Positions 1 to 27,769 of a stretch of DNA of 32,364 nucleotides are shown here, in pieces. Each line of letters starts with the position of its first letter. Position 1 is the first letter of the stretch. The notes under the pieces are model-generated. The model was not told the origin of the DNA, ran no database searches, and worked only from the letters and a program-made list of their open reading frames with translations. This DNA comes from Desulfuromonas sp. (lineage in GTDB: Bacteria; Desulfobacterota; Desulfuromonadia; Desulfuromonadales; Geothermobacteraceae). The stretch lies in the NCBI GenBank assembly GCA_002868905.1, contig PKUA01000024.1:1-32364 (forward strand), read 5' to 3'. The position numbers were made by a program, and so were the translations under genes.

Positions 1-134
1 AAGCGGTTATCACGACAGCAATCAACTATCTTATTTGATAAAAGTGTTCTTCCTTCTCTTTTTGTTGTGGTCTATTGATCCGGTCCACAGTCTTTCTCCT
101 TTTCACCATTTGCCAAAATTCCAAGGAGGAAATC

Positions 135-1595: not shown

Positions 1596-1632
1596 TCACT
1601 ACGGCACCCTGACTATGCAAAAGGAGACCATG

Positions 1633-3246
1633 ATGAAATGCTTTAGATCTTTACTCGGACCGGTAATGGTTTTTGCCATGGCCAGTTACCTCCTTTTCCC
1701 CCTGCCGGTCCTTGGAGACCAAGTTATAGCGGATGACTTGATTGTCCAGGGAAGTGGTTGTTTCGGCTATGACTGCGTCAACGGAGAGAGTTTTGACGAA
1801 AACACCATACGCTTGAAGGAGAACAATACCCGGATCCTGTTCGAGGACACCAGCGCAGCCCCTGGTGACCCTGACCAAGACTGGTGGCTGATCGCTAACG
1901 ATTCCTCCAACGGCGGACCAAACATGTTTGCCATCAGCGATTTTACCGGTATCGGGCCAAGCAACACTAACCGCCAGGGGATTCCCTATTCGACCGAAAC
2001 CGTTCCGTATGATCCGGATCTGTACCACCCTAGTATCTATTGCACCTCCGTCGGCAGCGGCGGGAACACCAACTTTCCCCCATACCCCGACGGATTTTTC
2101 GAATGTCCCGCAACGATCGACATAGACACCAACAAGCCGGAACAACTCCTGTTCATGGTCGATGCGGGAACCAACAGCTTTCAAATTCGATCCGGGCAGG
2201 TATTGGTCGGGACCGATGCAAGCCCGCGCCGACTGGTCAACGTCGCCAGCGGTAATCAACCGAACGATGTCATTAACGTCGGCCAGCTCGAGAATGCCGA
2301 GCAAGGCCTCGCGTTTGTCCAAGGGCTCAACGGAACCAGTGTGGCCGGGCTACCGGAGTTGCAGACAAACCTAAATGATGCGGAGCAGAGTCTCCCTGTC
2401 CTCGCTGCCGATTTCAGTGATGTGGAGCAGGGGGTGACCACGAACCGGCAGGCGATTGACCGGAACGTTACCTCCATCATCGGTCTCAGCCAGCAGCTCG
2501 CCGGCAACCAGAGCGACCTTAACTTTCTCAGGGAGCGTGGAATCGGACTCGATACCAACGGAGGAGAGGCAACCGCTTCTGGTGAAGGATCAGCGTCACT
2601 TGGAAGTGGAGCCAGGGCCAACGGCCGTGACACTGCTGTTGGAGCGGGGACAACGGTTGACGCCGACGGCAGCGTCGCGGTCGGCAACAACAGCACGGTG
2701 CAGGCAGTGAATGCCGTTGCAGTCGGGGCTGACAGCCAAGTCAACGAAAACGCGGCCGGGGGAATCGCCCTCGGCCAGGAAGCGCAGGTTGGGGAAACGG
2801 CGACCGGTGGCGTCGCTCTTGGCCAGGGAACTGAAAACGATGAATCCGATACCCTTTCGGTTGGAGGCACCGGAACGGAAAGGCGCATCAGCCACGTGGC
2901 AGCAGCCTCAACGGAAACCGACCTGGTCAACCGCTCCCAGTTGCAGGAAGCAGAGGTGCGAATGCAGTCAGGTGTTGATCGGGTCTCGGAACAATTGGAC
3001 GAACTCGACGAGCGAAGCGACCATGTTGGAGCCCTGTCCGCCGCCCTGTCCGCGCTTGTTCCCAATGGACGGGCTGGTGGAATAACACAAGTCGCACTCG
3101 GACTTGGCCATTACAGCGGCGAGAACGCAGTCGCCGCAGGACTTTTCGTCTACCTGAGCGACGGTGTCTTGTTCAACGCGGGAGTCAGCTCGGCTTTCGC
3201 CACCAACAGCACTGCCGGTCGGGCCGGGTTCGTAATCAGCTGGTAG
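1633..3246 (+). CDS. YadA-like trimeric autotransporter adhesin, second of a tandem pair
   Basis: 537-residue paralogue of the preceding gene. AAGGAG at 1621-1626 fits ATG 1633 (6 nt spacing) better than ATG 1630. It has a signal peptide, then the same N-terminal opening as its neighbour (GDQVIADDLIVQGS, LKENNTRILFEDTS, QDWWLIAND). It then carries about 70 extra residues rich in Pro, Tyr and Asn with two Cys (around positions 110-180) that the first copy lacks. The neck (RRLVNVASG), coiled coil, head repeats (SVAVGNNSTV and similar), second neck (ERRISHVAA) and C-terminal YadA anchor ending in Trp match the first copy. Type Vc secretion is expected. A hairpin 15 nt after the stop closes the unit. 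The pair probably arose by duplication, with divergence in the head and N-terminal region. Confidence 0.87.
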   Translation: MKCFRSLLGPVMVFAMASYLLFPLPVLGDQVIADDLIVQGSGCFGYDCVNGESFDENTIRLKENNTRILFEDTSAAPGDPDQDWWLIANDSSNGGPNMFAISDFTGIGPSNTNRQGIPYSTETVPYDPDLYHPSIYCTSVGSGGNTNFPPYPDGFFECPATIDIDTNKPEQLLFMVDAGTNSFQIRSGQVLVGTDASPRRLVNVASGNQPNDVINVGQLENAEQGLAFVQGLNGTSVAGLPELQTNLNDAEQSLPVLAADFSDVEQGVTTNRQAIDRNVTSIIGLSQQLAGNQSDLNFLRERGIGLDTNGGEATASGEGSASLGSGARANGRDTAVGAGTTVDADGSVAVGNNSTVQAVNAVAVGADSQVNENAAGGIALGQEAQVGETATGGVALGQGTENDESDTLSVGGTGTERRISHVAAASTETDLVNRSQLQEAEVRMQSGVDRVSEQLDELDERSDHVGALSAALSALVPNGRAGGITQVALGLGHYSGENAVAAGLFVYLSDGVLFNAGVSSAFATNSTAGRAGFVISW

Positions 3247-3604: not shown

Positions 3605-4813
3605 TCAGGCCTTAACCTGGTTGCGTCCCCCTTTTTTCGCCTTGTATAAATTCTGGTCCGCCCGCTTCAGGACAACCCCCGGTTTTTCGCCTTTACCTCT
3701 TTGCGCTGCGCCAATGCTGACGGTCACTTTTAGCAGGCGGGGGTCCCTGCTCTTCTTTTTCGCGCCTTTCGGTTTGCGTGGCGGTCGCGACCAGTGACGA
3801 AGTTGAAAGCCGGTTTCGGCAATTCTTTCCCGCAGGGTTTCCAGATGGGGCACTGTCTCCTCAAGGGTGCGTCTCGAAAACAGCACCGCAAATTCTTCTC
3901 CACCATAGCGAAACGCCTTGCCGCCACCGGTCACATTCTCCAGGACTTTCGAGACCATCTTCAGGACCTGGTCGCCGACATCATGCCCATATTTATCGTT
4001 ACAGCGCTTGAAAAAATCGATATCGACCATGGCGATCGTATAGTGCCCTCCCAGTTTCTCAAGAGATTCCTGCATGGCACGTCGACCGGGAAGGTTTGTC
4101 AGCTCGTCGCGGTAGGCGAGAGCATGAAAACTCTCAACTGTAGCAAGGACGAGGGTCAGGGCTCCGAGAGCAAACCAGGTCGTTGCTGGAATGCCGCCCA
4201 GGCTGAAAAGTCCTGCGCAGCTTAAAAACAGCACCGCCAGAAGCCCGCCATTCTGCGGAGTCGGTTGCTTCCAAAAACGGAGAAAAAGAATCAGGGCCGT
4301 CAGAATTATTGTCACCAATGCCGGGTCGGATAAGTCGGCCGGCTGAATGGTCAAGGGGATCCAGTCGCGAGCAACGAGGTCCTGGAATGTTTGTTTCCGC
4401 TCGCTTATAACCCAGGTTCCAGCAGCTCCGAGCAGGCCCAGCCAGGTCATGCGCAACAGCCCTCCTATGGCAAACAGGCCGGTTTCCCTCAGCAGGGAGA
4501 AGAGACAGAGATTCAGGGGGAGGGCAAAGCTTAACAGGGCGATGGTGATTGAACCGTTGTCAGTTCCACCGGTCCAGTAGAGGGTTCGGTCAGTCAGGAA
4601 CAGAAGGAGTAATGCAAACAGCAGCCTGGTTCGGTTGAGGCGCCAACAGAGCAAGCTCCCGAACAACACCAGCAGGCAGAGGGCAGGGTAGACGAAAGGG
4701 CCGACCTTCTCAACCTGGGCAGGGTAAACCTTTATCAGGGATGCCAGAAAGAGGGTGAGCCCTCCCGGCCAGAGCAGGGCGAGAAGGCGGCGGCGATTTG
4801 TGGATGAGGGCAT
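3605..4813 (-). CDS. Membrane-bound diguanylate cyclase (GGDEF domain)
   Basis: 402 residues. The N-terminal 230 residues are mostly hydrophobic and hold several membrane segments, resembling no sensor domain I can name. The C-terminal GGDEF domain starts at RDELTNLPGRR (235-245) and has the metal-binding MVDIDFFKR (262-270), NDKYGHDVGD and the active-site GGEEF at 304-308. A GGEEF signature and complete core predict active synthesis of c-di-GMP from two GTP. The inhibitory RxxD site normally just before GGEEF is absent (the segment reads VTGGGKAF), so product feedback may be missing. A basic insert of about 20 residues (around 341-360) lies before the last conserved strand. The gene follows a small secreted protein by 30 nt, probably in one transcript. 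Confidence 0.9.
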   Translation of the reverse strand: MPSSTNRRRLLALLWPGGLTLFLASLIKVYPAQVEKVGPFVYPALCLLVLFGSLLCWRLNRTRLLFALLLLFLTDRTLYWTGGTDNGSITIALLSFALPLNLCLFSLLRETGLFAIGGLLRMTWLGLLGAAGTWVISERKQTFQDLVARDWIPLTIQPADLSDPALVTIILTALILFLRFWKQPTPQNGGLLAVLFLSCAGLFSLGGIPATTWFALGALTLVLATVESFHALAYRDELTNLPGRRAMQESLEKLGGHYTIAMVDIDFFKRCNDKYGHDVGDQVLKMVSKVLENVTGGGKAFRYGGEEFAVLFSRRTLEETVPHLETLRERIAETGFQLRHWSRPPRKPKGAKKKSRDPRLLKVTVSIGAAQRGKGEKPGVVLKRADQNLYKAKKGGRNQVKA

Positions 4814-12752: not shown

Positions 12753-15700
12753 TTAGCTTGCGTAGGTGTCCGGGTTGAAGTCGACCTGCAGGCCGCCGTC
12801 GATCAAGTCCTGCAGGTTGCTGGCCGAATCGAACTGGTTGCCGGCGTTGACGTCGGCCAGGGTAACGCTGGTGTCACCGTTGCTGCCGGAGATCAGCAGT
12901 TCGACATCCGCACCGTCGACGGTCACATCGATCGTGACATCGTTGGCGTCGAACAGGGCATCGGCATTGGTGTCGAGCACGTCAGTCAGTTGCAGCACGT
13001 CGTTGGCGGTGTCGAAGTTGTCGATGTTGTGGTCCCCTTCGCCGCCGAGGGCGCTGAAAGCGAACACGTCGTTTGAATCATCGACCAGGATCGATTGCTG
13101 CGTGAAACTGCTCGTTTGCTGCTCGAACAGAGCTTCAACCTGCTGCGGAACCGGAGTCGATTCACTGGCATCGAAGGTGATGTCGAAGCTGCCGGTGGCG
13201 GTGTCGAGGTCGTCGTCGGTAGCGACGAAGTTGAGGGTCACCGTCTGGTCGATCCCTTCGGTCCCACCACGCCCCAGCACCAGGGTCGAGAGCCCGTAGC
13301 CGTTGGTGTTGGTCTCGGAGTTGGAGAACTCGAGGGCATCGAAGTGAACTCCGAGATTGAGTGGGTCAACATCGATCAAGTAGGTGTCGCCCGGGCCGAG
13401 GTCGCCGTCATCGAACGTGCCTCTCGCCACCACGGTGTTGCCGTCCCATGCCTTCCAGTGGGCGGTGTCATTGGCGGTGAACTGCCAGAAACCGAGGGTC
13501 ACCGCGTCGAGTTCGGACGGTGCATTGGTGATCGGGTCGCTGAAGTCGAGGCGGAGGACGTCGTCCGGGCTGCCGCCAGCGCCGTCCCCTTCGATCTTGC
13601 TCCCCGTGTCGACGCCCAGGGCGTTGGCATTATGGTTGACCGTTGCCGTATGGTCGGCCAGGGGGTCGGCTACCGGGTCGATGATGTCTTGTGTGGAGAA
13701 ATCACCGAGGTGGAAGTAGGCGGAGGCGGTGATATCCACACCGTCCATGACCACGAATTCCTGGGTGTTGCCGCCGGTGTAGCTACCACTGAACAGGTTG
13801 ATCGGCTCAACCGGCGCCCCGTCGATCTTGCCGTACATGGTGACTTCGTAGTTGCCGTCGCTCGGGTCGTTCAGTTCGGCGGTGAAGATCCAGGAGGTCA
13901 TGTCACCGGGAGTCCCGGGGTTGGTCGTCGCGATCAAAGTGGTGGTTCCGCCACCGACGAAGTAAATCGGAGCACCGTCGGAGGTCAGGTTGCCCTGGTC
14001 GCTGCTCGCCTGGGTCAAACCGTCATAGGCGCTGTCGAAGACCACGCCGTCCGGTCCTTCCGGACCATCGGCGCCGTAGGAGATGCCAAGGGAGGCGGTC
14101 TCGGTGTCGCCGGTATCGTAGGTGATGGTGACGTTACCGGTCCCACTGACCAGCGGGCTGTCATCTTCGATCACCGCTTGCGGTTTCGCCGAGTCCGCAA
14201 GGCTGGAGGTGATCTCCGTGCTGCCGACGGTGACGTCGAGGGCGATGGAAATATTGTCCTCGTCCGCCTCGTTGGCGCCGGCGGTGTTCAGAGGGTGCGT
14301 GACCGGCTCGGAGAGCAGCGTCTCGTAACGGATGGTGTACTCGTTGGGGTCGGAATTTTGCACGCTGTCCACGGTGATCCGGACGACTTCGTCGTTGTTG
14401 TCGTCACGGGTTCCGATCAGTGCATCGTCGGCCGCGCTCCAGGCGAAGTTGACTGCGACGCCATCGGCTGTCTGCAGCACAGTGCTGGTGCCGAGGGTAA
14501 TCGCGTCGACGTTGCCGGTGTAATTGGTGTCCACGTCGGTGAAGACAATGGTGCCGTTGGTGCCGCCACTGACTGTGGCGGATGCCGAGTTGGTGGTGTC
14601 AGCCGGGTTCGGCAGGGCGTCTGCGTTCGGATTCGCCAGCCCCTCTTCGGAGACATGGGTGTCGGTCTTGCTGTCGAAGACTGGCGGATCGTCAGTCGGG
14701 GTCACGGTGATGGTGACCGTGGCGGTGTCGGTGCCGCCGTTGCCGTCGCTGATCTGATAGGCGAACGAGTCGGTACCGTTGTAGTTGGCGGCCGGGTCAT
14801 AAGTGAAGGTGCCGTCGCTGTCGAGATTGACGGTCCCGCCGTTGCTGGTCAGGAACTGGATAGTGTTGTCGCCACCAAGTGCCGCAATGCTGCCGACAGT
14901 GGCGCCGCCCTGGACGACTGTCAAGCTGTCGCCGTCGATATCGTAGTCATCAACACCGCCGGTATCGCCCGGGTCACCTTCATGATTCAGAACGCCGTCG
15001 GCGATCAGGTTGACAGCCAACTGGGTATCCTCGCTGGTCGTGTAAGCATCATCCTGGGCCACCGGATCATCATTCTGAGGGGATACGGTGATCGTGACAG
15101 TAGCGGTATCGGTGCCGCCATTGCCGTCGCTGATCTGGTAGGCGAAGGTGTCGGTGCCATTGTAGTTGGCGGCCGGGTCATAGGTGAAGGTGCCGTCGCT
15201 GTCAAGATTGACGGTCCCGCCATTGCTGGTCAGGAACTGGATGGTGTTGTCGCCACCGAGAGGAGCGATGGTGCCGAGCGTGGCGCCTCCCTGGACAACG
15301 GTCAGCGTGTCGCCGTCGATATCGTAGTCATCGACGCCGCCAGTATCGCCGGGATCCCCTTCATGGTTCAGAACGCCATCGGCAATCAGGTTGACGTTCA
15401 GCTGGGTGTCCTCGTTGGTCGTGTAGGCGTCATCCTGGGCCACCGGGTCGTCATTGGATGCACCGACGTCGATGAACACGTTGGCCGTGGCGCTCCCGCC
15501 CTGACCGTCGCTAATGGTGTACTGGAAAGACTGCACACCGTTGAACTCAGCGTCGGGCATGAAGGTGAAGGAGCCGTTGCTGTTCATGTTCAGCGTACCG
15601 TTGGCCAGGTTGATCGGGCCGGCGATGGAGCCGCCGTTAACCTGGGTGACCGACAATGTCCCGCCGTCCGGATCAAAATCATCGACGACTTCCGGAGCAT

Positions 15701-17708
15701 CAATGTGGACGAGGATGCCGTTGGCGGCGTTGACCGTCAACAGGGTGTCTTCCTGCGCTTCATAGGAGTCGTCCCGGGCGATCGGGAGATCATTGACCGC
15801 ATTGACGATTATGGTAACAGTGGCGGTATCTGTGCCGCCGTTGCCATCACTGATGGTATATTGGAACTGCTGCTGACCGCTAAAATCCGGGTCAGGGGTG
15901 AAATTGAAGGACCCGTCGCTGTTGATGTTCAGGGTGCCATTCTCGAGGGCGATCGGCCCGCCGATGGGGCCGCCATTGACTGCGATCACTGAGAGAGGAT
16001 CGCCATCCGGGTCTTCGTCGTCAACTGTTTCCCCGGCATCGAGGTGGACGAGGGTACCACTGCCCGCGTTGACGAATAGCACTCCGTCTTCGTTCATGGT
16101 GTAGGTGTCGTTGCGGGCGATCGGACCATCATTCTCCTCGCTCATGATGATGGTGACGGTTGCAGTGTCGGTACCGCCGTTGCCGTCGCTGATCTCGTAG
16201 ACGAATGCGTCGTTGCCGTTGAAATTCGGCGCCGGCGTGTAATCGAAAGTGCCGTCGCTGTTGAGAGAAACGGTCCCGCCGTTATTGGTCAGGAAGACCA
16301 GGCTGCCACCACCGCCGAGCGGATTCAGATCGCCGAAATCCGCACCACCCTGGATGACAGTCAGCGCGTCACCGTCGAGATCGTAATCGTCCGCAGGTTC
16401 GCCCGGTTTGGTCGGATTTTCCTGGTCGCCCGGGTCGCCCTCGTGGTTAAGAACGCCATCTGCTATGTTGCCGACACTCAGTACGGTGTCTTCCTGCCCG
16501 AGATAGGTGTCGTCCTGCGCGACCGGGCCATCATTGGCCGGTCCCATGACGATAGTGACGGTCGCTGTGTCTGTGCCGCCGTTGCCGTCGCTGATCTCGT
16601 AGACGAATTCATCGGTGCCGTTGAAGTTGGCCGCCGGGTCGTAGGTGAAGGTTCCGTCGTTATTGAGTGTGACGACCCCGTCGTTGTTGGTGTTGAAAAC
16701 GATGGATCCGTTACCGTTCAAGGCTGCGAGGTCACCGAGGTCGGCGCCGGCCTGAACAACGGTGAGGGTGTCACCGTCGATGTCAAAATCATCGACGCCG
16801 TTGATGTCGCCGGGGTCCCCTTCATGGTTAAGCACGCCGTCAGCGACGTTGCCGACCACCAGTTCGGTGTCCTCGGTGCCGGCATAGGTGTCGTCCTGGG
16901 CGACCGGGCCGTCGTTGACAGGGTCGACCGTTATGGTGACGGTAGCGATGTTGCTGTCGAGTTCGCCGTCATTGGCGAAGTAGGTGAAGGTGTCGGTGCC
17001 GTTGAAGTTGGCATTCGGCGTGTAAGTGAACGAGCCATCCTCATTGATCCCGAGGGTGCCGAACTGCGGCGCATCGACCAGGGTAGAGGTCAGCGGATCA
17101 TTTTCCGGATCGCTGTCGTTCAACAGAATGCCGGAAGGCAGGATGGTGAGCGTTTCATCTTCGGCCACCGTGTAGGCATCATCTATGGCCGTCGGCGGAT
17201 CATTGACCAGAGGATCATCGGTGATGACATTCTGCTGCTCGGAGCCGGGAGTTCCGTCCGGATCCTGGGTGCCGAGCTTGTTGACTCCGGTGAGGGAATC
17301 CCCCAGGTCGTCCCGGTATTCCCCGGCGCCGCCACTCCCGGCGGTTGCTCCGGCGGCCGGCTCTTCAGTTGGGGCCGCTTCCAGGGCAGCCAACAGCGTT
17401 TCGGCCGGGATGGCTGTTCCGTCGTCGGTCCAGAGCATCATCGACTCGTCCTGCTCGGCCATGCTGGCAAAGTTTTCGAGGGTGATGCTGCCACCGTTGG
17501 CAAAATCGATGCGGAGATCACCACCGTCCATGGTGAGGGTCTGGGCGTTGATGTCGAAGCCGAATTGCAGCATTTCTCCAGGCTGCATGATGACGGTTTG
17601 AGATTCGCCCGCATCCGGCATGGTCAGCATCTCGGCAGATTTCATTGCTTCGGCATTAACCTGGGCATTTTCTTCGGGATTGCTTGTCATTTTCGTTTGG
17701 TCAGCCAT
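12753..17708 (-). CDS. Lap-type type I secreted adhesin with LapG-cleavable retention module
   Basis: 1651 residues, with a strong AAGGGGGAAG site before ATG 17708. There is no Sec signal. Residues 1-165 resemble a LapA-type retention module (LQFGFDINAQTLTMDGGDLR, FANGGSITLENF) followed by a P117-A-A-G120 site of the di-alanine type cut by LapG. Residues 170-1007 form seven cadherin-like repeats, each opening with PVAQDDTYxxxEDT and closing with ISDGNGGTDTATVTI. A non-repeated region (about 1008-1540) follows. The last 110 residues (FSALGGEGDHNIDNFDTAND, then DVLQLTDVLD) match type I secretion C-terminal targets of the VCA0849 type. The family model is export by ABC/MFP/TolC, plugging in the outer membrane by the retention module, and release by LapG. 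All those partners lie at 19157-25240. It is much shorter than Pseudomonas LapA. Long reading frames on the opposite strand are shadows of the repeats. Confidence 0.9.
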   Translation of the reverse strand: MADQTKMTSNPEENAQVNAEAMKSAEMLTMPDAGESQTVIMQPGEMLQFGFDINAQTLTMDGGDLRIDFANGGSITLENFASMAEQDESMMLWTDDGTAIPAETLLAALEAAPTEEPAAGATAGSGGAGEYRDDLGDSLTGVNKLGTQDPDGTPGSEQQNVITDDPLVNDPPTAIDDAYTVAEDETLTILPSGILLNDSDPENDPLTSTLVDAPQFGTLGINEDGSFTYTPNANFNGTDTFTYFANDGELDSNIATVTITVDPVNDGPVAQDDTYAGTEDTELVVGNVADGVLNHEGDPGDINGVDDFDIDGDTLTVVQAGADLGDLAALNGNGSIVFNTNNDGVVTLNNDGTFTYDPAANFNGTDEFVYEISDGNGGTDTATVTIVMGPANDGPVAQDDTYLGQEDTVLSVGNIADGVLNHEGDPGDQENPTKPGEPADDYDLDGDALTVIQGGADFGDLNPLGGGGSLVFLTNNGGTVSLNSDGTFDYTPAPNFNGNDAFVYEISDGNGGTDTATVTIIMSEENDGPIARNDTYTMNEDGVLFVNAGSGTLVHLDAGETVDDEDPDGDPLSVIAVNGGPIGGPIALENGTLNINSDGSFNFTPDPDFSGQQQFQYTISDGNGGTDTATVTIIVNAVNDLPIARDDSYEAQEDTLLTVNAANGILVHIDAPEVVDDFDPDGGTLSVTQVNGGSIAGPINLANGTLNMNSNGSFTFMPDAEFNGVQSFQYTISDGQGGSATANVFIDVGASNDDPVAQDDAYTTNEDTQLNVNLIADGVLNHEGDPGDTGGVDDYDIDGDTLTVVQGGATLGTIAPLGGDNTIQFLTSNGGTVNLDSDGTFTYDPAANYNGTDTFAYQISDGNGGTDTATVTITVSPQNDDPVAQDDAYTTSEDTQLAVNLIADGVLNHEGDPGDTGGVDDYDIDGDSLTVVQGGATVGSIAALGGDNTIQFLTSNGGTVNLDSDGTFTYDPAANYNGTDSFAYQISDGNGGTDTATVTITVTPTDDPPVFDSKTDTHVSEEGLANPNADALPNPADTTNSASATVSGGTNGTIVFTDVDTNYTGNVDAITLGTSTVLQTADGVAVNFAWSAADDALIGTRDDNNDEVVRITVDSVQNSDPNEYTIRYETLLSEPVTHPLNTAGANEADEDNISIALDVTVGSTEITSSLADSAKPQAVIEDDSPLVSGTGNVTITYDTGDTETASLGISYGADGPEGPDGVVFDSAYDGLTQASSDQGNLTSDGAPIYFVGGGTTTLIATTNPGTPGDMTSWIFTAELNDPSDGNYEVTMYGKIDGAPVEPINLFSGSYTGGNTQEFVVMDGVDITASAYFHLGDFSTQDIIDPVADPLADHTATVNHNANALGVDTGSKIEGDGAGGSPDDVLRLDFSDPITNAPSELDAVTLGFWQFTANDTAHWKAWDGNTVVARGTFDDGDLGPGDTYLIDVDPLNLGVHFDALEFSNSETNTNGYGLSTLVLGRGGTEGIDQTVTLNFVATDDDLDTATGSFDITFDASESTPVPQQVEALFEQQTSSFTQQSILVDDSNDVFAFSALGGEGDHNIDNFDTANDVLQLTDVLDTNADALFDANDVTIDVTVDGADVELLISGSNGDTSVTLADVNAGNQFDSASNLQDLIDGGLQVDFNPDTYAS
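14688..15449 (-). repeat. Near-identical tandem duplication, repeats 6 and 7
   Basis: Two adjacent 381-bp units (15069-15449 and 14688-15068) encode 127 residues each and differ at only about 10 amino acids. They share long identical DNA stretches, so this is the most recent duplication in the repeat array. Confidence 0.85.
14688..17201 (-). repeat. Seven tandem cadherin-like repeats within the adhesin
   Basis: The units are of about 97-134 residues: 170-266, 267-393, 394-527, 528-640, 641-753, 754-880 and 881-1007 of the adhesin. Units 2, 3, 6 and 7 share an inserted GVLNHEGDPGD segment. Units 4 and 5 instead have a VHLDAGETVDD / VHIDAPEVVDD segment and form a second subtype. The Asp/Asn-rich linkers are typical of calcium-stiffened adhesin rods. 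Confidence 0.85.
17349..17360 (-). other. Predicted LapG cleavage site (PAAG) in the adhesin
   Basis: Codes for Pro117-Ala118-Ala119-Gly120, directly after a helical stretch (ETLLAALEAAPTEE) and before a flexible Gly/Ala segment. LapG-type proteases cut in a di-alanine motif of the form [TAP]AA[GV] about 100-120 residues into their substrates, which fits position and context here. Confidence 0.65.
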
Positions 17709-19156: not shown

Positions 19157-20524
19157 TTACTCGCTTTTCTTGTTTTGCGCGGCGTAGAGTTCCTGGCCGA
19201 TACCAAGGCTTGAATTGATTTTCCCGGCCAGGGTCAGGAGCCGCTCGGCTGCGATGACTTCATTGGTTCTTGCGGTCACCAGCAGGCCTGAACTCTGAAA
19301 CAACTCATTGCGTGCATCAAGAACATCGAGAAGTGTCCTCTGCCCGACATTGAACTGTTTCATGTAGGAATCAAGTGTCTTCTTGTTAAAGCCGACCGAA
19401 TCGCCGAAGGCTACCACCTGCGCACGGGCGGATTCCAGCTCTGCCCAGGTGGAGCGGGTCTCTTCAATGACCTGGTCGAGCTGATCATCGCGAGCAGCGA
19501 CCGCCTGCAGGTTCCGGGACGTAGCCGCTTTGCGGTCAGCGACATCGGAGCCGCCATTGAGCAGGTTCCATCTCATGCGGATCATGGCCTGGTTGTTGTG
19601 CTCATAGGTTTCCGAGCTTTCAACCTGGTCATAGTAGGTGCTGCTCAACTCGGCGAAGAACTTCGGCATATAGTTTGACTTCGAGAGGCCGACGCGGGCC
19701 TTGCTCTCTTCGATGTTGGCCGTCAAGGCAAGAACCTTCGGGTTCCCCATCCGGGTCGCCTCAACCGCCTCATCGGCCGTTTTCGGGATCATCTCGGCCG
19801 GAACCGTATGAAAGGCGACATCACCGGCCTGTTTGCCGACAAGGCGCGTATAATTGGCCTTTGCGGACGCGAGAGCACTTTGGGTTTCAACCAGGGAGGC
19901 GGTAGCGCGCGCCAGCCGGGCGCGGGTCTGATCGACATCGGCGATGCTGCCGGCACCACCCTCCTGGCGCTCCTTCAGCATGTCGAGAATCTCTTTGTGA
20001 TCGGCCACATTCTTCTGGGCAAGACTGACCAGCTCTTTTTGCCGGTAGACTTCCATGTGGGCGATGATCGCGTCGAGGGCAATTGCCTCTGCGTTGTCGT
20101 ACACCCGGAAATTGGCCGAATCGAGTTTGGCTGTCTCGACGCCGACCCGACTGCCGGTTTCGCTTCCGTCAAACAGCAACTGGGAGAGGGTCAGGCCCGC
20201 TTCGAGTCGATCGTAGAAATGATCCTCGATATTTTCGGCCCTGGTTTTTTCATCGTTATGAGCTTCAAAACCATAGCCGGCATTGAGATCGAGGCGAGGG
20301 AAATATCCTCCCTTAGCTCTGTTGCGCTCATGCATGATCGCCGTTTGGTTGTTCTGCAGGACTTTGAGTCGCGGGCTGTATTGCAGGGCCGAAGAGACGG
20401 TGTCGGTCACAGTCACTTTCATCTCGGCGGCGTCCGTCGGTGGCACAACCAGGAATAGCCCGAGCAGTACCAGGCTGAGAGTCATGGCCAGAGTCCTGAT
20501 ACTTTTGTGTTTGGGGTCGATCAT
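19157..20524 (-). CDS. TolC-family outer membrane protein (LapE-like)
   Basis: 455 residues with a GAGGAGG site before ATG 20524 and a signal peptide ending near residue 32 (PPTDAA). It shows the two-fold TolC pattern: DTVSSALQYSPRLKV and AKGGYFPRLDLNAGYGFE at the N-terminus, repeated as ATRMGNPKVLALTANIEES and SKSNYMPKFFAELSSTYYDQ. The late segment YMKQFNVGQRTLLDVLDARNEL is characteristic of type I secretion outer membrane proteins. It should form the trimeric exit duct for the adhesin with the ABC and membrane fusion proteins. It is read away from them across a 342-bp intergenic region, so the two halves of the exporter can be co-regulated. Confidence 0.92.
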   Translation of the reverse strand: MIDPKHKSIRTLAMTLSLVLLGLFLVVPPTDAAEMKVTVTDTVSSALQYSPRLKVLQNNQTAIMHERNRAKGGYFPRLDLNAGYGFEAHNDEKTRAENIEDHFYDRLEAGLTLSQLLFDGSETGSRVGVETAKLDSANFRVYDNAEAIALDAIIAHMEVYRQKELVSLAQKNVADHKEILDMLKERQEGGAGSIADVDQTRARLARATASLVETQSALASAKANYTRLVGKQAGDVAFHTVPAEMIPKTADEAVEATRMGNPKVLALTANIEESKARVGLSKSNYMPKFFAELSSTYYDQVESSETYEHNNQAMIRMRWNLLNGGSDVADRKAATSRNLQAVAARDDQLDQVIEETRSTWAELESARAQVVAFGDSVGFNKKTLDSYMKQFNVGQRTLLDVLDARNELFQSSGLLVTARTNEVIAAERLLTLAGKINSSLGIGQELYAAQNKKSE

Positions 20525-20764: not shown

Positions 20765-20866
20765 TCACCCAGCCAACTTGTTCATATTGTTATAAATTCT
20801 CAATCATTGGAGTTTGACAGCCATTTCACAATCAGGCTCCAATATAATAAATATAGTGAATTTGTG

Positions 20867-23116
20867 ATGCCGATACCCAAGAGACCGACAAGTCCCAATC
20901 AATCGCCCCCTGCAAACCCCACAGCTGATCCGACCGAAAAGGCGCCCAGGGCCCAGTCCGGTGGTCGCCATCCCTTCGTCACCCCAGGGATGGTCGACTT
21001 CGAGCCACCACTGCTTCGCTGCCTTTCGCTTATCTCGGGACGTCTCGGGCACCCTGTCTCGACCGTGGCACTGAAATCAGGGATACCTACCGGTCGGGAT
21101 CGTCCGACCCTCGCAGTCTGCATCCGGGCGGCCGAGCAGGTTGGTCTGATCGTCAAGACCTTCTATCGCCCCCAGTTGCAAAATATCTCCACCCTGACCC
21201 TGCCGTGTATTTTGATGCTTAAGGGGGAGCAGGCCTGCCTCTTGACGGGGATGAAAAAAGACAAGGCAAGGGTTGTCTTTCCTGAAAGGGGAGATTCCTC
21301 GACGGTGATTTCCGTCGATCTATTGCAGGAACAGTTCACCGGGTACACTCTCATGGTGCAGGTGGCCGGCAAATTGGACAAGCGGGCCAGCGATCTGAAA
21401 CTGCTAAATACCCGGGAATGGTTTTGGGGGACGGTTCTTAAGTTTTTCCCTATTTACAAACATGTTCTGCTGGCGACGGTTCTGGTCAACATCCTGGCTT
21501 TGGCAAGTCCGCTGTTTGTCATGAACGTTTACGACCGGGTGGTACCGAACAATGCGATCGACACGCTCTGGGCGTTGGCAATCGGCGTATTTATCGCTTA
21601 CGGTTTCGACTTCTTGTTGCGAAACCTGCGTGGCTATTTCGTTGATGTCGCCGGGAAAAACGCCGACATCATCATTGCTAGCAAGCTGATGCAGCAGATG
21701 ACGGCCATGCGGCTCGACCACAAACCGGATTCGGCCGGGACCCTGGCCAACAATCTGCGGGAATTCGAAACCCTGCGAGAGTTCTTCAGCTCCACCACCC
21801 TGATGGCATTGGTCGACCTCCCTTTCATTTTCATATTTATCGGCCTGATCAGCTATATCGGCGGTCCGCTTGGATTTGCTCCCCTGTTGGCCGTACCGCT
21901 GGTGATCCTGGTCGGTGTTTTCCTGCAGCAGCCGTTTCAGCGTGTTGTCGAGCGGAGCTTTCGGGAGGGCGCCCAGAAAAACGCACTTCTGGTCGAAGCC
22001 ATTACCGGGCTTGAAACGATCAAGACCAGCATGGCGGAAGGGCAGATCCAGAAACGGTGGGAGGAAGTCGTTGGCATGAACGCCAAGTCGACCAATCGCG
22101 CCCGTGCTCTCTCCAACTTCTCCATGACTTTCTCCCAGTGGTCGGCACAACTTGTCAGTGTCCTCATTGTCGTCGGCGGGGTTTACCTGATCGTCGAAGG
22201 AGAATTGACCCTCGGTGGCTTGATCGCGTGCAACATCCTGGTCGGGAGGGCCATGGCTCCACTCGGCGCGCTGGCTGCGATGCTGACCCGCTTCCAGCAG
22301 TCGCGTATGGCGCTGAAGTCCCTCGATCTGCTGATGCGTCAGCCGAACGAGAGGCCGGCGGGACATGAGTTTATCAAGATTCAGGATCTTGACCCCTCAC
22401 TCGAGTTCGATAATGTCTCATTCCAATACCCGGGTAGTCAGGTTCAGGCGCTAAACGATGTCTCTTTTAAGATTTCGGCCGGTGAAAAAGTGGGTGTCAT
22501 CGGTCGCACCGGTTCCGGGAAAAGCACCTTGGGACGTCTCTGTCTGAGCCTTTATCAACCGCAGGAAGGTGCCATCAAGATCGGTGGCATCGATCTTCGC
22601 CAATTGCATGTTGCCGACCTGCGTGCTCATATCGGGTATGTCAGTCAAGATAATTATCTGTTTTACGGGAGCATCCGGGAAAATATCGCCCTCGGTGTCC
22701 CGTACGTGGACGGGCAGACTATTTTACGTGCGGCCAATATCGCCGGAGTGACCGACTTCGTCAAAGGGCATCCGGCCGGGTTTGACTGGCAGGTCGGAGA
22801 ACGAGGGATGAACCTCTCCGGCGGACAACGCCAGGCGGTCACCATTGCGCGAGCACTTCTGCTCGATCCCGAAATCGTTATTTTGGATGAACCGACCAGC
22901 GCCATGGATAACAATGCCGAAATCATTCTGCGCCAGAGATTGAAGAGCAGCCTGGCAGATCGGACCCTGTTACTGTTCACTCACCGCACCAGCATGCTGC
23001 AACTGGTTGATCGTCTGGTGGTGGTTGAAGCTGGCCGGATTGTTGCCGACGGGCCGAAGATTGAAATTCTCAAGGCCCTCAGAAGTGGCGGCGTCCCCTC
23101 AGGCAAGAGAGCATAA
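20867..23116 (+). CDS. LapB-type type I secretion ABC transporter
   Basis: 749 residues from ATG 20867; the frame continues to a TTG at 20807, but no ribosome site supports it. The start is uncertain because the ATG site itself is weak. Residues 45-165 form a C39-like domain (LLRCLSLISGRLGHPVS) that lacks the catalytic Cys of true C39 peptidases, as in exporters of RTX and Lap proteins that are not cut during export. A membrane domain follows (about 190-480), then the ATPase with Walker A VIGRTGSGKST (about 543-553), signature LSGGQRQ (about 649) and Walker B VILDEPTSAMD (about 671). It powers adhesin export across the inner membrane. Its stop overlaps the next start by one base (TAATG). Confidence 0.93.
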   Translation: MPIPKRPTSPNQSPPANPTADPTEKAPRAQSGGRHPFVTPGMVDFEPPLLRCLSLISGRLGHPVSTVALKSGIPTGRDRPTLAVCIRAAEQVGLIVKTFYRPQLQNISTLTLPCILMLKGEQACLLTGMKKDKARVVFPERGDSSTVISVDLLQEQFTGYTLMVQVAGKLDKRASDLKLLNTREWFWGTVLKFFPIYKHVLLATVLVNILALASPLFVMNVYDRVVPNNAIDTLWALAIGVFIAYGFDFLLRNLRGYFVDVAGKNADIIIASKLMQQMTAMRLDHKPDSAGTLANNLREFETLREFFSSTTLMALVDLPFIFIFIGLISYIGGPLGFAPLLAVPLVILVGVFLQQPFQRVVERSFREGAQKNALLVEAITGLETIKTSMAEGQIQKRWEEVVGMNAKSTNRARALSNFSMTFSQWSAQLVSVLIVVGGVYLIVEGELTLGGLIACNILVGRAMAPLGALAAMLTRFQQSRMALKSLDLLMRQPNERPAGHEFIKIQDLDPSLEFDNVSFQYPGSQVQALNDVSFKISAGEKVGVIGRTGSGKSTLGRLCLSLYQPQEGAIKIGGIDLRQLHVADLRAHIGYVSQDNYLFYGSIRENIALGVPYVDGQTILRAANIAGVTDFVKGHPAGFDWQVGERGMNLSGGQRQAVTIARALLLDPEIVILDEPTSAMDNNAEIILRQRLKSSLADRTLLLFTHRTSMLQLVDRLVVVEAGRIVADGPKIEILKALRSGGVPSGKRA

Positions 23117-24507
23117 TGTCGATGTCCGAACAGAAGCCGAAACCCGAAGTCCCTCAGATGGAACAGCGACGCGGACTGCTCAGCCCGTACCGCAAGGAAG
23201 AAGAACTGTTCTTTATGAGTGAGGTCGATGCCGCGATTCATCGGCGCGGACATGCGTTCGCTTATCTTTTGACCCTGGCGATTGCCTCTTTGCTGGTGGT
23301 CTTTGTTGTCTGGGCCCATTTCACCGTGTTGGACGAAGTGACGCGCGGTATGGGGCAGGTTATCCCGTCGCAACGTGTGCAGGTCATCCAGAATCTCGAG
23401 GGTGGCATTCTGCAGGATATTTACGTAGAGGAGAACCAGATCGTCAACAAAGGGGACGTTCTGGTTCGGATCGACAACCAGCTTGCAGCCAGCCAGTATC
23501 GCGATGCCGCGGCCAAGGCAGCGGAACACCAGGCGGCCATCGTCCGGCTGCAGGCCGAGGCGGAAGGGAAAAGCAAGCTGGTGTTCCCTGCAGATCTCCA
23601 AACCCTCAACCCACAGGTTCTCGATGATCAGCGCGCCACATTCAGAGCGCGACTTCGTCAGCTGGATGCTGAGCTGAACGTATTGGAGTCCCAGTTGGTG
23701 CAACGTCGGCAGGAAATTGAAGAGATGCAGAGCCGCAGGGCCCAACTGGAACGAAGCCTGGAATTGGCCGTTGAACAGCGTAATATTGCTCAGCCGCTGG
23801 TAGAGCAAGGGGTTTATGCCAAGACCGATTTCCTGGCGGTTGAAAGGGATATTTCGAAGTTAAAAGGGGACATTGATGCCTTGCGGCTCGGGGAACCACG
23901 GGTAAGGGCTGCCGCGAGCGAAGCCCGGCGACGAATCGCACAGCGAAAAGCAGAATTTCAGGCCCAGGCGGTCGATGAGCTAAACCGGCGCCGGGGCGAG
24001 ATGAATTCTCTGCGCGAGATGATGTCCGCAGGAGAGGACCGGGTGACACGAACCGATGTTCGGTCTCCGGTGCGCGGAACGGTCAAACAGTTGAAACTGA
24101 CGACCCTCGGCGGCGTTGTCCGACCGGGTGAGCCGATCATGGAAATCGTTCCCCTGGACGACACGTTGTGGATCGAGGCGCAGATCAGACCGGCGGATAT
24201 CGCCTTCCTGCACCCGGGGCAGAAAGCGATGATCAAAATCACAGCTTACGATTTTGCAATCTTCGGCGGTCTGCAAGGGTTTGTCGAGGCAATCAGCGCC
24301 GATACGATTCAGAATGAGGATGGTGAGAGTTACTACAAGGTGAAGTTGCGCACCAAGACCAACGCCCTGAGCTATCGCGGAGAGAACTTGCCGATCATCC
24401 CCGGAATGACTGCCAGCGTTGATATCCTGACCGGGAAGAAGTCGGTCCTCGATTTTCTCCTGAAACCGATCCTGCGCATGAAACAGAATGCCCTGCGTGA
24501 GCGGTAA
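23116..24507 (+). CDS. HlyD/LapC-type membrane fusion protein
   Basis: 463 residues. It has a cytoplasmic N-terminus, one membrane segment (about 47-68) and the lipoyl half-motif IQNLEGGILQDIYVEENQIV, which opens HlyD-type adaptors. A long coiled coil follows (about 180-310; QLDAELNVLESQLVQRRQEI, then VEQGVYAKTDFLAVERDI), and the C-terminal beta-barrel carries VRSPVRGTVKQLKL-like and RPGEPIMEIVPLDDTLWIEA segments. It should bridge the ABC transporter and the TolC-like protein in the periplasm. It is coupled to the ABC gene by a one-base overlap and overlaps the protease gene by up to 20 nt. Confidence 0.93.
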   Translation: MSMSEQKPKPEVPQMEQRRGLLSPYRKEEELFFMSEVDAAIHRRGHAFAYLLTLAIASLLVVFVVWAHFTVLDEVTRGMGQVIPSQRVQVIQNLEGGILQDIYVEENQIVNKGDVLVRIDNQLAASQYRDAAAKAAEHQAAIVRLQAEAEGKSKLVFPADLQTLNPQVLDDQRATFRARLRQLDAELNVLESQLVQRRQEIEEMQSRRAQLERSLELAVEQRNIAQPLVEQGVYAKTDFLAVERDISKLKGDIDALRLGEPRVRAAASEARRRIAQRKAEFQAQAVDELNRRRGEMNSLREMMSAGEDRVTRTDVRSPVRGTVKQLKLTTLGGVVRPGEPIMEIVPLDDTLWIEAQIRPADIAFLHPGQKAMIKITAYDFAIFGGLQGFVEAISADTIQNEDGESYYKVKLRTKTNALSYRGENLPIIPGMTASVDILTGKKSVLDFLLKPILRMKQNALRER

Positions 24508-25240
24508 CAGGAATCGGCGGCTGATCATGCTTGGAGTCCGCTTATCTGTAGCCTCAGCCTGTTTCTGCCTGTTGTTGGCGACGGTCGGTTGCGGCTCAAA
24601 GGCAGCGGCCAAGGGGGATGGCGTGTCGTTGATTCCCCCCGGCAAAGGGCTGTTTCGCAGTCATGAATTCAGGAGCACATTGAAGGCGCTTCCGCATTGG
24701 AACAGGGTGTTGGACCGGGCCGGTCAACAGGGCGTCGAAATGGCTGCTTGCAATCCGAGGATTCAGAGTTGTTCGGCTGCGGCACTGAGTTGGCAAAAAA
24801 TTCTCGGGGAGGCAGCCGGCCTGGAAAACATGGAGTTGTTGCGAAAAATCAACAACTATTTCAACCGGTGGCCTTACCGGCTCGATATCGACGTGTATGG
24901 TGTCAGTGATTATTGGGCGACGCCAGGGGAGTTTTTGAAGCTCTCCGGTGACTGCGAAGATTATTGCATCACCAAATATTTTGCCTTACGCCAACTCGGT
25001 TTTCCGGCAGAAAAGATGCGCATTGTCGTTCTGCAGGATACCATCAGGAATCTGACACATGCGGTGCTGGCCGTCGAGACGGATGCGGAAACCGTTATTC
25101 TCGACAACCTTTCTAATTTGGTGCTGCCACACACACGCTATGAACACTATTTGCCACAATATTCCGTCAATGAACAGTTTCGCTGGGCCCATATTGCGCC
25201 GGGTTTAGCTCGGATGAAAGGCTCTTCCTCTAACCAATAA
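24488..25240 (+). CDS. lapG: LapG-type periplasmic cysteine protease
   Basis: 250 residues from ATG 24488; ATG 24527 is a fair alternative giving 237 residues, and neither has a strong ribosome site. An N-terminal export signal is followed by GCGSKAAAK, which may be a weak lipobox (TVGC). The protease fold has NNYFNRWPYRLDIDVYG, the active Cys in SGDCEDYC (C156), His in LTHAVLA (H191) and Asp in ILDNLS (D206), the catalytic set of the bacterial transglutaminase-like LapG family. In the known system LapG cuts the di-alanine site of its adhesin when not held by a membrane receptor. The substrate is probably the protein at 12753-17708. Confidence 0.9.
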   Translation: MPCVSGNRNRRLIMLGVRLSVASACFCLLLATVGCGSKAAAKGDGVSLIPPGKGLFRSHEFRSTLKALPHWNRVLDRAGQQGVEMAACNPRIQSCSAAALSWQKILGEAAGLENMELLRKINNYFNRWPYRLDIDVYGVSDYWATPGEFLKLSGDCEDYCITKYFALRQLGFPAEKMRIVVLQDTIRNLTHAVLAVETDAETVILDNLSNLVLPHTRYEHYLPQYSVNEQFRWAHIAPGLARMKGSSSNQ

Positions 25241-25251
25241 GAGGTGCAGGG

Positions 25252-27351
25252 ATGCGGCAGTCCATAGGAAACCAATTCTTCAGGGATTCAGTCGACAACA
25301 GTCGACAGCAGCCTGAGAGTATGAGGAAAACATTCTGGATCGGTTTGGCGATCATTCTGGTCGTCGCCGTTTCCGCCGTGGTCTGGACATACTGGGCCTC
25401 GAGTGTGCGGGAGCGGGAGTTCGAAGCCAATCTCGGAAAAAGACTGGAGCTGCTGGCTGGTTCGCAGGTTCAATTGGTCGAGGCGCTCCTGGAGACATCC
25501 ATCGAACAGGCGAATCGGGTCATTAATGCCGAGGTTTTTAAACTTTATGCTGCCGAAGTCGACCTGATCGAGGACGATGTGTCGTGGCTGGTGGCCGGGA
25601 ACCTGCCGGGGAAAGAGCCGCTGAAGGGGAACCTTTCAGATCTCTCCGAGCAACTTCCGATGATGCAGAACCTGTTGATTGAGTTCACCCGCATTTCCGG
25701 GTTTGTCGCCGGTCGAGTGGTCAACCGTAACGGCACGGTTTTCATTTCGACCGATGCAGCGACGACCCCTTTACGCAGCGGACAGGCTGAGCATGTGAAA
25801 ACGGCGCTGCAAAGCGCCAAGCCGACATTCGGTGCGATCCGCTACCAGGAAAGCGGGTTGGTTCTAGATACCTTTCTGCCAATCTTCCCACCGGAGGCAA
25901 GTGGGCTGGAGCAAAAACCTGTCGCCGTTCTGTTGTTAACCAAGGTGGTCGGGAAGCATTTTGATGAAATCCGGAACAGCTCCTTGTTGGAAAAAGGAGA
26001 ACAGATTCGCTGGATTCAGAAAATAGACATTAAATACGAAGAGATTGTCCCCTGGTTACCCGGTCAAATGCAGGTCCTCTCTGGTGGCGTTTCCCTCGAG
26101 GTGGATGAGGGGCTGACGTTTGCCAGCCGATCTTCCCTCGGTGGAGATCGCCGTGTTTATTCCCGCGCGATGACTATTCCCGGCCCCTCCTGGTGGGTGG
26201 TTGTCGAGGCAGACTACAGCATCGTGCGTGAGACTCTGCGGGGGGAACGACGTTCCATGCTGAGTATTGCCGGGCTGTTGGTACTCATATTCGCGGTCAC
26301 TTTCGGTGCTGTATGGGCGGCTTTGGTCAGCCAACAGGATCGCCGGGTGGCTCACCATTTCAAACGGTTGGCCGCCGAGATCGAAAGTCAGCGCCAGCTG
26401 CTCGATCAGATCAACAACAACATTGCCGATTACATCAGCCTGAAAGATCTCAAGGGGCATTATCAGTATGTCAATCCGGCATTTGCCAAGGCGGTAGGTC
26501 GAGAGCCGCAGGAGATCGTGGGGCTCGATGCCGAAGCTGTCTTCGGCTTCGATACGGCCAAGCGGTTAGAGCATTCGGAGCAGCAGGTCCTTGCCGGGTC
26601 CGGTCCCGTCACTTTCGAGGAGACGGTTTTTCTGCAGTCAAGTCAGCACCATCTGTTGATTTCGAAGGCACCGATTCGAGACAGTGACGGCAAAGTCAGC
26701 GGGATCGTATCGGTGTCCAGGGATATAACGTCCATGGTCGAGGTTCAGAAGCGACAGGAGCAGGCAACGCACAAGACGGTCGAGGCGTTGGTGCGCGCCA
26801 TTGAATTGACCGACCCCTACCTGGCAGGGCATTCACGGCTGGTCTCTGCGCTCGGAGTTGAAGTGGCAAAGGCTTTGAACGCCAGTAATGTCGATACCGC
26901 AACTGTCGAGACCGCCGCTCACCTCTCCCAGGTCGGGAAACTGTTTGTCGATCGAAAGTTGCTGAGCAAGGTTGATCCTTTAACAGCCGAGGAGAAGCGG
27001 GAAATGGAATCCCACGTCGACCACGCCGCCAAAGTTCTGAAGGGGATCGATTTCGGACTGCCGATCTTCGAGGCCATCTACCAAATGAATGAGCACCTTA
27101 ACGGGACCGGCTATCCCAAGCAATTGACGGGGGATGCAATTGAATTGCCTGCCCGAATTCTCGGTGTTGTCAACAGCTTCTGCGCTATGGTCGAGCCGCG
27201 TTCCTATCGGGCTGCCCGTCCGGTGGAGGAAGCTCTTGATATTATAACTTCTGAAAAAGATGGTTATGACGAGCAGGTGATCGCGGCATTAGGTGAAGTT
27301 GTCAATTCCGCCATTGGCGAGAAGCTTCTGGTGCGTCACATGGAGTCCTGA
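25252..27351 (+). CDS. Membrane receptor with periplasmic domain, PAS and degenerate HD-GYP domain
   Basis: 699 residues; GAGGTG precedes ATG 25252. Membrane segments at about 27-49 and 336-358 enclose a periplasmic sensor of about 285 residues. A helical linker (about 362-388), a PAS domain (about 388-497) and an HD-GYP-like domain (about 505-699) lie in the cytoplasm. The HD-GYP domain is worn: GHS (H527) and ESH (H588) are kept, but the HD pair is S559-Q560, HHE is M612-N613-E614, and the late metal Asp is N641. NGTGYP (617-622) is intact. It is therefore unlikely to hydrolyse c-di-GMP and may sense it. It starts 12 nt after lapG, where other species encode LapD, so a LapG-sequestering role is plausible inference. 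Confidence 0.85.
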   Translation: MRQSIGNQFFRDSVDNSRQQPESMRKTFWIGLAIILVVAVSAVVWTYWASSVREREFEANLGKRLELLAGSQVQLVEALLETSIEQANRVINAEVFKLYAAEVDLIEDDVSWLVAGNLPGKEPLKGNLSDLSEQLPMMQNLLIEFTRISGFVAGRVVNRNGTVFISTDAATTPLRSGQAEHVKTALQSAKPTFGAIRYQESGLVLDTFLPIFPPEASGLEQKPVAVLLLTKVVGKHFDEIRNSSLLEKGEQIRWIQKIDIKYEEIVPWLPGQMQVLSGGVSLEVDEGLTFASRSSLGGDRRVYSRAMTIPGPSWWVVVEADYSIVRETLRGERRSMLSIAGLLVLIFAVTFGAVWAALVSQQDRRVAHHFKRLAAEIESQRQLLDQINNNIADYISLKDLKGHYQYVNPAFAKAVGREPQEIVGLDAEAVFGFDTAKRLEHSEQQVLAGSGPVTFEETVFLQSSQHHLLISKAPIRDSDGKVSGIVSVSRDITSMVEVQKRQEQATHKTVEALVRAIELTDPYLAGHSRLVSALGVEVAKALNASNVDTATVETAAHLSQVGKLFVDRKLLSKVDPLTAEEKREMESHVDHAAKVLKGIDFGLPIFEAIYQMNEHLNGTGYPKQLTGDAIELPARILGVVNSFCAMVEPRSYRAARPVEEALDIITSEKDGYDEQVIAALGEVVNSAIGEKLLVRHMES

Positions 27352-27385: not shown

Positions 27386-27769
27386 ATGGTCAAAGCTAAA
27401 TCTCATCTTCTGATCATCGATGACTGTTCCTTCACCCTGGAGGTGATGAAAGATCAACTCACTCGTGCCGGCTACGAGGTTTCAATTGCAGATAACGTTG
27501 TCTATTCCAACGACCTCATTTACGGTTCAAACCCGCCGAGTCTTATTCTCCTGGATGTGCTGATGCCTCTCATGGGCGGGGACCGGAAGGTTGAAATGCT
27601 GAAACGCCGCAGTAAAAGTAAGGAAATACCGGTGGTCCTGATGTCATCACTTCCTGTTGATCAATTACAGGCCAAGGCCCAGGAGGTCGGCGCTGATGCC
27701 TTTCTTCACAAGCCGATTAGTGAAGAGGCGCTGCTTGAAATGGTTGGTAGATTCATGCAGAAAGGGTGA
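27386..27769 (+). CDS. Single-domain response regulator (receiver)
   Basis: 127 residues, one CheY-like receiver with no output domain. The acidic pair (LLIIDDCSF), phosphoacceptor Asp (LILLDVLMP), conserved Ser (VVLMSS) and Lys (FLHKP) are all present, so it should be phosphorylatable. GCGGGAA lies upstream of ATG 27386. It follows the HD-GYP receptor by 34 nt and precedes a terminator, so it is the last gene of the type I secretion unit. It may tune the receptor or pass on a phosphoryl group. No kinase is encoded nearby. Confidence 0.9.
   Translation: MVKAKSHLLIIDDCSFTLEVMKDQLTRAGYEVSIADNVVYSNDLIYGSNPPSLILLDVLMPLMGGDRKVEMLKRRSKSKEIPVVLMSSLPVDQLQAKAQEVGADAFLHKPISEEALLEMVGRFMQKG

Follow-up and report, generated by a model that had tools for sequence, protein, structure and literature searches.

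A degenerate HD-GYP protein of Desulfuromonas sp. as a probable DvhD-like c-di-GMP receptor beside a LapG-type protease

Introduction

What function is left to an HD-GYP domain that has lost most of its metal ligands and kept its GYP loop? The question is raised by one gene in a 32,364-nucleotide stretch of DNA from Desulfuromonas sp., which was analysed as a whole and is called the window below. An earlier note, made from the letters of the window, considered catalysis by this domain unlikely and saw a parallel to LapD, in which a degenerate c-di-GMP enzyme domain serves for binding. The reading that we favour, at a probability of roughly 0.9, is that the gene encodes a DvhD-like c-di-GMP receptor built on a dead HD-GYP domain, and that this receptor controls the release of an adhesin by the protease encoded next to it.

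Results

Domain structure and orthology of the receptor

The receptor gene and the domains of its product are:

25252..27351, + strand: DvhD-type receptor, an open frame of 699 amino acids (TM, dCache, TM, PAS, stalk helix, degenerate HD-GYP)
residues 24-52: TM1
25408..26250, + strand: periplasmic dCache domain, residues ~53-333 (PF02743, weak, E 2e-4; 9rc2, E 6.7e-44)
residues 334-362: TM2
26401..26733, + strand: PAS domain, residues 384-494 (PF08448/PF00989)
26788..27330, + strand: degenerate HD-GYP domain, residues 513-693 (PF13487, E 8.7e-40)

Pfam recognized the PAS and HD_5 domains strongly and the dCache domain weakly, and found none of the domains of LapD (LapD/MoxY periplasmic, GGDEF-EAL) in the receptor. 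The best matches in the PDB were 9rc0 (E 1.9e-89), 9rbz (E 1.7e-56) and 9rc2 (E 6.7e-44), which cover residues 60-320 and 377-693 and whose titles name the PAS/HD-GYP part of DvhD, the HD-GYP domain with c-di-GMP and the periplasmic domain, respectively. DvhD is DVU1020/BfsD of Desulfovibrio (Nitratidesulfovibrio) vulgaris Hildenborough. An AlphaFold2 model of the receptor had a mean pLDDT of 80.5 and a pTM of 0.45, so that the folds of its single domains are usable and their mutual placement is not. With this predicted structure as the query, hits 1-6 of a Foldseek search were the six DvhD chains and the next HD-GYP protein was PmGH, while the modelled dCache domain matched that of DvhD with a TMt of 0.90 and an rmsd of 2.0 A. 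The DvhD architecture, TM-dCache-TM-PAS-HD-GYP, was thus recovered by Pfam, PDB match, model and alignment. Within the HD-GYP domain the two proteins share 50% identity over 203 residues, without gaps and with identical numbering, and a tree of the cytoplasmic part, for which the program warns of long branches, placed the DvhD family and the receptor in one clade apart from the active HD-GYPs (100/100). By sequence, fold and context, the receptor is an orthologue of DvhD.

DvhD has SQ for the HD pair and M/N for the two His, hydrolyses no c-di-GMP with any added ion, and shows no metal in its 1.8 A structure (Font et al. 2026, PMC13090378). It binds c-di-GMP with a Kd of ~99 nM, and 3'3'-cGAMP only ~5 times more weakly; for c-di-GMP it has a canonical site (Y523, L577, K582, Y621, M646, R650, Y652, E668) and a bridging site (K520, P567, R569) that is required for the full effect; binding splays the stalk helices (PMC13090378). 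The protein responds to c-di-GMP inside cells and controls the LapG-type protease DvhG in a c-di-GMP-dependent manner, for which it was termed functionally analogous to LapD (PMC13090378). Since these measurements were published for an orthologue, the idea that the dead domain had become a c-di-GMP-binding receptor in the manner of LapD was right but already in print, and the receptor is a further example of a system that work of 2024-2026 had described in a sulfate reducer. A reconstitution study of the DvhD system, Karbelkar et al. 2024 in PNAS, is among the work cited by Font et al.

Loss of most metal ligands

The altered motifs and the retained loop lie at:

26926..26931, + strand: S559-Q560, replacing the HD pair
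27085..27093, + strand: M612-N613-E614, replacing HHE
27100..27117, + strand: NGTGYP loop, residues 617-622, kept; in DvhD, Y621 contacts the phosphate of c-di-GMP
27172..27174, + strand: N641, replacing a metal-ligand Asp

All of these residues, together with the retained H527 and H588, were confirmed in the translation as the earlier note had given them, and K563 is kept as well. The active phosphodiesterase PmGH has eight metal ligands, E185, H189, H221, D222, H250, H276, H277 and D305 (PMC4159591). Aligned with PmGH, the receptor retains H189 (H527) and H250 (H588), and has Y523 at E185, S559 at H221, Q560 at D222, M612 at H276, N613 at H277 and N641 at D305. A Tyr aligned with E185 is normal for Y/F-subfamily HD-GYPs as well; the informative losses are therefore those of five of the seven universal ligands, and the receptor does not have the full His/Asp set of active HD-GYP phosphodiesterases. 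That catalysis is unlikely, as had been proposed, is further borne out by the inactivity of DvhD, with the same SQ/MN, in the presence of every metal tried (PMC13090378). By comparison with PmGH and DvhD, the receptor's HD-GYP domain can probably no longer cut c-di-GMP.

The substitutions are conserved across the family, in which S559 is found in 89% of 38 members (the rest having Cys), Q560, M612 and N641 in 97% each and N613 in 95%, and H588, E614, Y621 and K563 in 100%. Orthologues with an intact HD pair, which would have spoken against the earlier note, were absent among the ~50 relatives examined, and chance, a sequencing error or a local oddity of this copy is thereby ruled out. In the same genome, three other HD-GYP proteins have HD, HHE and GYP intact, indicating that the motif loss is specific to the receptor gene. 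Finally, dN/dS over the degenerate domain was 0.05-0.14 in close pairs within the receptor's clade, which indicates that it is maintained under strong purifying selection and rules out a useless domain in decay.

The c-di-GMP pocket and the bridging site

27187..27210, + strand: M646, R650, Y652 and R653, four residues of the canonical DvhD pocket for c-di-GMP, each retained
26809..26811, + strand: T520, standing where DvhD has the bridging-site K520
26950..26958, + strand: D567-R568-K569, replacing the loop P567-S568-R569 that lines the bridging c-di-GMP site in DvhD

At the nine canonical positions (Y523, L577, K582, Y621, M646, R650, Y652, R653 and E668) the receptor and DvhD are identical (9/9). 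Among 38 core members, Y621, R650 and R653 are invariant, Y523, L577 and M646 are present in 95-97%, and the K582 position is mostly Lys or Arg. The residue that confers base specificity by reading the second guanine, E668, is present in the receptor and variable in the family (24%).

The bridging site of DvhD is not retained, its K520, P567 and R569 being T520, D567 and K569 in the receptor. This is shared by the receptor's closest group, in which T520 occurs in 20/20 and D567 and R568 in 19/20 each; in the tree, the receptor falls inside a clade of 17 rows, all with D567 (100/99). P567 clusters within the Desulfovibrionaceae, on the branch that includes D. vulgaris DvhD, and occurs in one row elsewhere, and because of this confinement we did not treat the bridging site as defining the family. 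The alignments thus indicate that the canonical site is a family trait and that the bridging site, as the crystal structure shows it, is a lineage trait. Without that site, the switch of the receptor may differ in detail from that of DvhD. We tentatively suggest, at somewhat less than even odds, that the bridging site has been lost or rebuilt in the Desulfuromonadales branch, so that a dimer would hold two rather than three c-di-GMP molecules, or an Asp-Arg pair would hold the bridging nucleotide. Such a change, if real, would give a different affinity and cooperativity, and since the canonical pocket alone is widely conserved, the role of the bridging site could be tested by comparing natural orthologues.

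Protease, exporter and adhesin

The following genes accompany the receptor:

12753..17708, - strand: large repeat adhesin, 1651 aa, with an N-terminal retention-type module followed by cadherin/Big_9 repeats
17349..17360, - strand: PAAG, adhesin residues 117-120, the predicted cleavage site, after the predicted targeting helix PAETLLAALEA
19157..20524, - strand: TolC-family outer membrane channel (TIGR01844 above cut-off), divergent to the exporter genes
20807..23116, + strand: LssB-type type I secretion permease/ATPase (TIGR03375 above cut-off)
23116..24507, + strand: HlyD-type type I secretion adaptor (TIGR01843 above cut-off)
24488..25240, + strand: LapG/DvhG-type BTLCP periplasmic cysteine protease, 250 aa (PF06035, E 1.7e-21)

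As in DvhD systems, the receptor thus adjoins a LapG-type BTLCP protease and a type I secretion operon. The protease matches the LapG model NF045674 with E 1.6e-31, under the NCBIfam equivalog cut-off, and has the Cys-His-Asp of BTLCP proteases and their calcium-binding D-C-E motif, in SGDCEDY (GDCED, C156), THAV and LDN. It lies directly upstream of the receptor, is a single copy in the genome, and is adjacent to the receptor in all core loci whose sequence extends to that flank. Its signal (24488-24600) ends in the lipobox-like LATVGC-GS, with C35, and a similar form is seen in many of its relatives within the order, so that the protease may be a lipoprotein tethered to the membrane. DvhG, by contrast, is anchored by a TM helix and has a long disordered linker, and the two forms may answer a common need to hold the protease at the membrane.

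The 1651-aa adhesin is likely the substrate of the protease. Its PAAG fits the cleavage motif of the DvhG system, [T/A/P]AAG (PMC13090378), and homologous adhesin N-termini have TAAG, PAAG or VAAG at the same position, with three exceptions. The adhesin N-terminus occurs once in the genome and, within the order, in 23/33 receptor-positive and 0/103 receptor-negative genomes (Fisher p 1.5e-18, a value that overstates independence because the genomes are related and were counted as independent). The order ABC-HlyD-protease-receptor recurs in loci of Desulfuromonadales and Desulfovibrionales, the protease-receptor pair is also found in a Rhodospirillales MAG, and in two Desulfuromonadales MAGs the adhesin, a LuxR-type regulator, TolC, ABC, HlyD, protease and receptor are clustered as in the window. 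By gene content, the adhesin-release system around the receptor is complete in the window.

Other genes of the window include two adjoining, slightly overlapping frames (75-3246), each a YadA-type trimeric autotransporter with stalk and anchor domains, and a GGDEF diguanylate cyclase (3605-4813, - strand), which could supply the signal. A single-domain CheY-like response regulator is encoded directly downstream of the receptor (27386-27769); it was rejected as a part of the system, as it does not stand beside the receptor in other loci. No RNA families or tRNAs were found in the window.

Distribution and second copies

The four remaining genomes of the family to which the window belongs (G091-G094) are without the receptor, which is common in another family of the order, and this patchy distribution suggests transfer or repeated loss. 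One orthologue (L021, G013:C92:44541-46475) has an in-frame TGA, its match stopping at residue 662, and is possibly truncated or misassembled. In a group that branches with the Desulfovibrionaceae (rows L050-L064; genomes G211, G244, G299, G323, G388, G464, G481 and G500), two DvhD-like copies are present in 7/8 genomes. The protease-side copy has lost the GYP Tyr (GTGQP, GTGLP or GSGHP) and has Ala for H588, Asn for Y523 and Gln for K582; in the HlyD-side copy, which has no adjoining protease, the GYP Tyr is retained. This pattern suggests that in the two-copy genomes ligand binding and protease control are split between the copies, or that the copies form a heterodimer.

Alternative roles of the domain

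The residues that remain leave some room for continued hydrolysis of a cyclic dinucleotide, by way of a metal set that is unusual or reduced (H527, H588, E614, K563): besides the two His ligands, E614 and K563, the receptor keeps D521 (D183 of PmGH), and among its relatives L045 retains the late Asp and L028 has His at 613. We give this hardly any credence, since H221A, D222A, H276A and H277A each abolish the activity of PmGH (PMC4159591) and DvhD, with the same substitutions, is both inactive with all ions tried and metal-free at 1.8 A (PMC13090378). It is also very improbable that the degenerate HD-GYP domain is a mere structural element for dimerisation and that the dCache or PAS domain provides the true input. 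dCache and PAS are typical sensory domains, and the bridging site that ties the DvhD dimer is not kept in the receptor; however, few parts of the HD-GYP domain are as conserved as the canonical pocket, and the response of DvhD to c-di-GMP was seen in cells (PMC13090378).

A c-di-GMP receptor is also to be weighed against a receptor whose physiological ligand is another dinucleotide, such as 3'3'-cGAMP or pGpG. The small difference in affinity of DvhD for 3'3'-cGAMP (~5x) and the Hypr GGDEF enzymes making cGAMP that have been noted for some Deltaproteobacteria (PMC13090378) would allow for this, as would the variability of E668 among relatives. E668 and the rest of the canonical contacts are nevertheless all present in the receptor itself, and a GGDEF protein, of Hypr type or not, is encoded in the same window, so that we regard a different ligand as unlikely, if less so than the two roles above.

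Discussion

The sequence of the window, its operon, the conserved pocket, the purifying selection and the orthology with DvhD are direct observations, and from them a course of events can be proposed for a c-di-GMP receptor at this locus. At high cytoplasmic levels, c-di-GMP would bind the pocket formed by Y523, L577, K582, Y621, M646, R650, Y652 and E668, upon which the HD-GYP dimer would rearrange and the stalk helices would splay. This change would be relayed by PAS and the TM helices into the periplasm, where the dCache domain would then restrain the adjoining LapG-type protease, and the large adhesin would remain anchored. When c-di-GMP drops, the protease would be freed and would cut the adhesin at PAAG, after the retention module, and the cell would detach. 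The lack of hydrolysis, the binding, the conformational change and the control of DvhG were established with DvhD, and the window protein would share them by analogy.

The closest known system is that of DvhD itself, with the same domain order, the same SQ/MN/N substitutions, all nine canonical c-di-GMP contacts, an adjoining LapG-type protease and type I exporter, and an adhesin with a retention module and a [T/A/P]AAG site; the differences are the T, D and K that replace K520, P567 and R569, an identity of ~50% in the HD-GYP domain, and the lipobox-like signal of the protease where DvhG has its TM anchor. PmGH (4mcw), an active phosphodiesterase, shares the HD-GYP fold, the GYP loop, two His ligands and the Lys, but has all eight metal ligands, of which the receptor retains two, with Tyr aligned to E185. 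The NosR-type degenerate HD-GYP response regulators likewise have an altered catalytic motif and are thought inactive, but they are receiver-HD-GYP proteins that act within a two-component system rather than with a protease, and their motif, HG-GTP, shows that GYP is altered as well, unlike in the receptor (PMC12570481). A search of the genome with the LapD profile PF16448 was without a match, and control genomes gave none either. With LapD of Pseudomonas fluorescens the receptor shares the logic, in which a degenerate c-di-GMP enzyme domain acts as a receptor and controls periplasmic LapG from the inside out, but LapD is a LapD/MoxY-HAMP-GGDEF-EAL protein and the two are unrelated in sequence and domains. 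The receptor would work like LapD but is no LapD, and the replacement of LapD by an HD-GYP protein is a system that Desulfuromonadales, like Desulfovibrio, have maintained.
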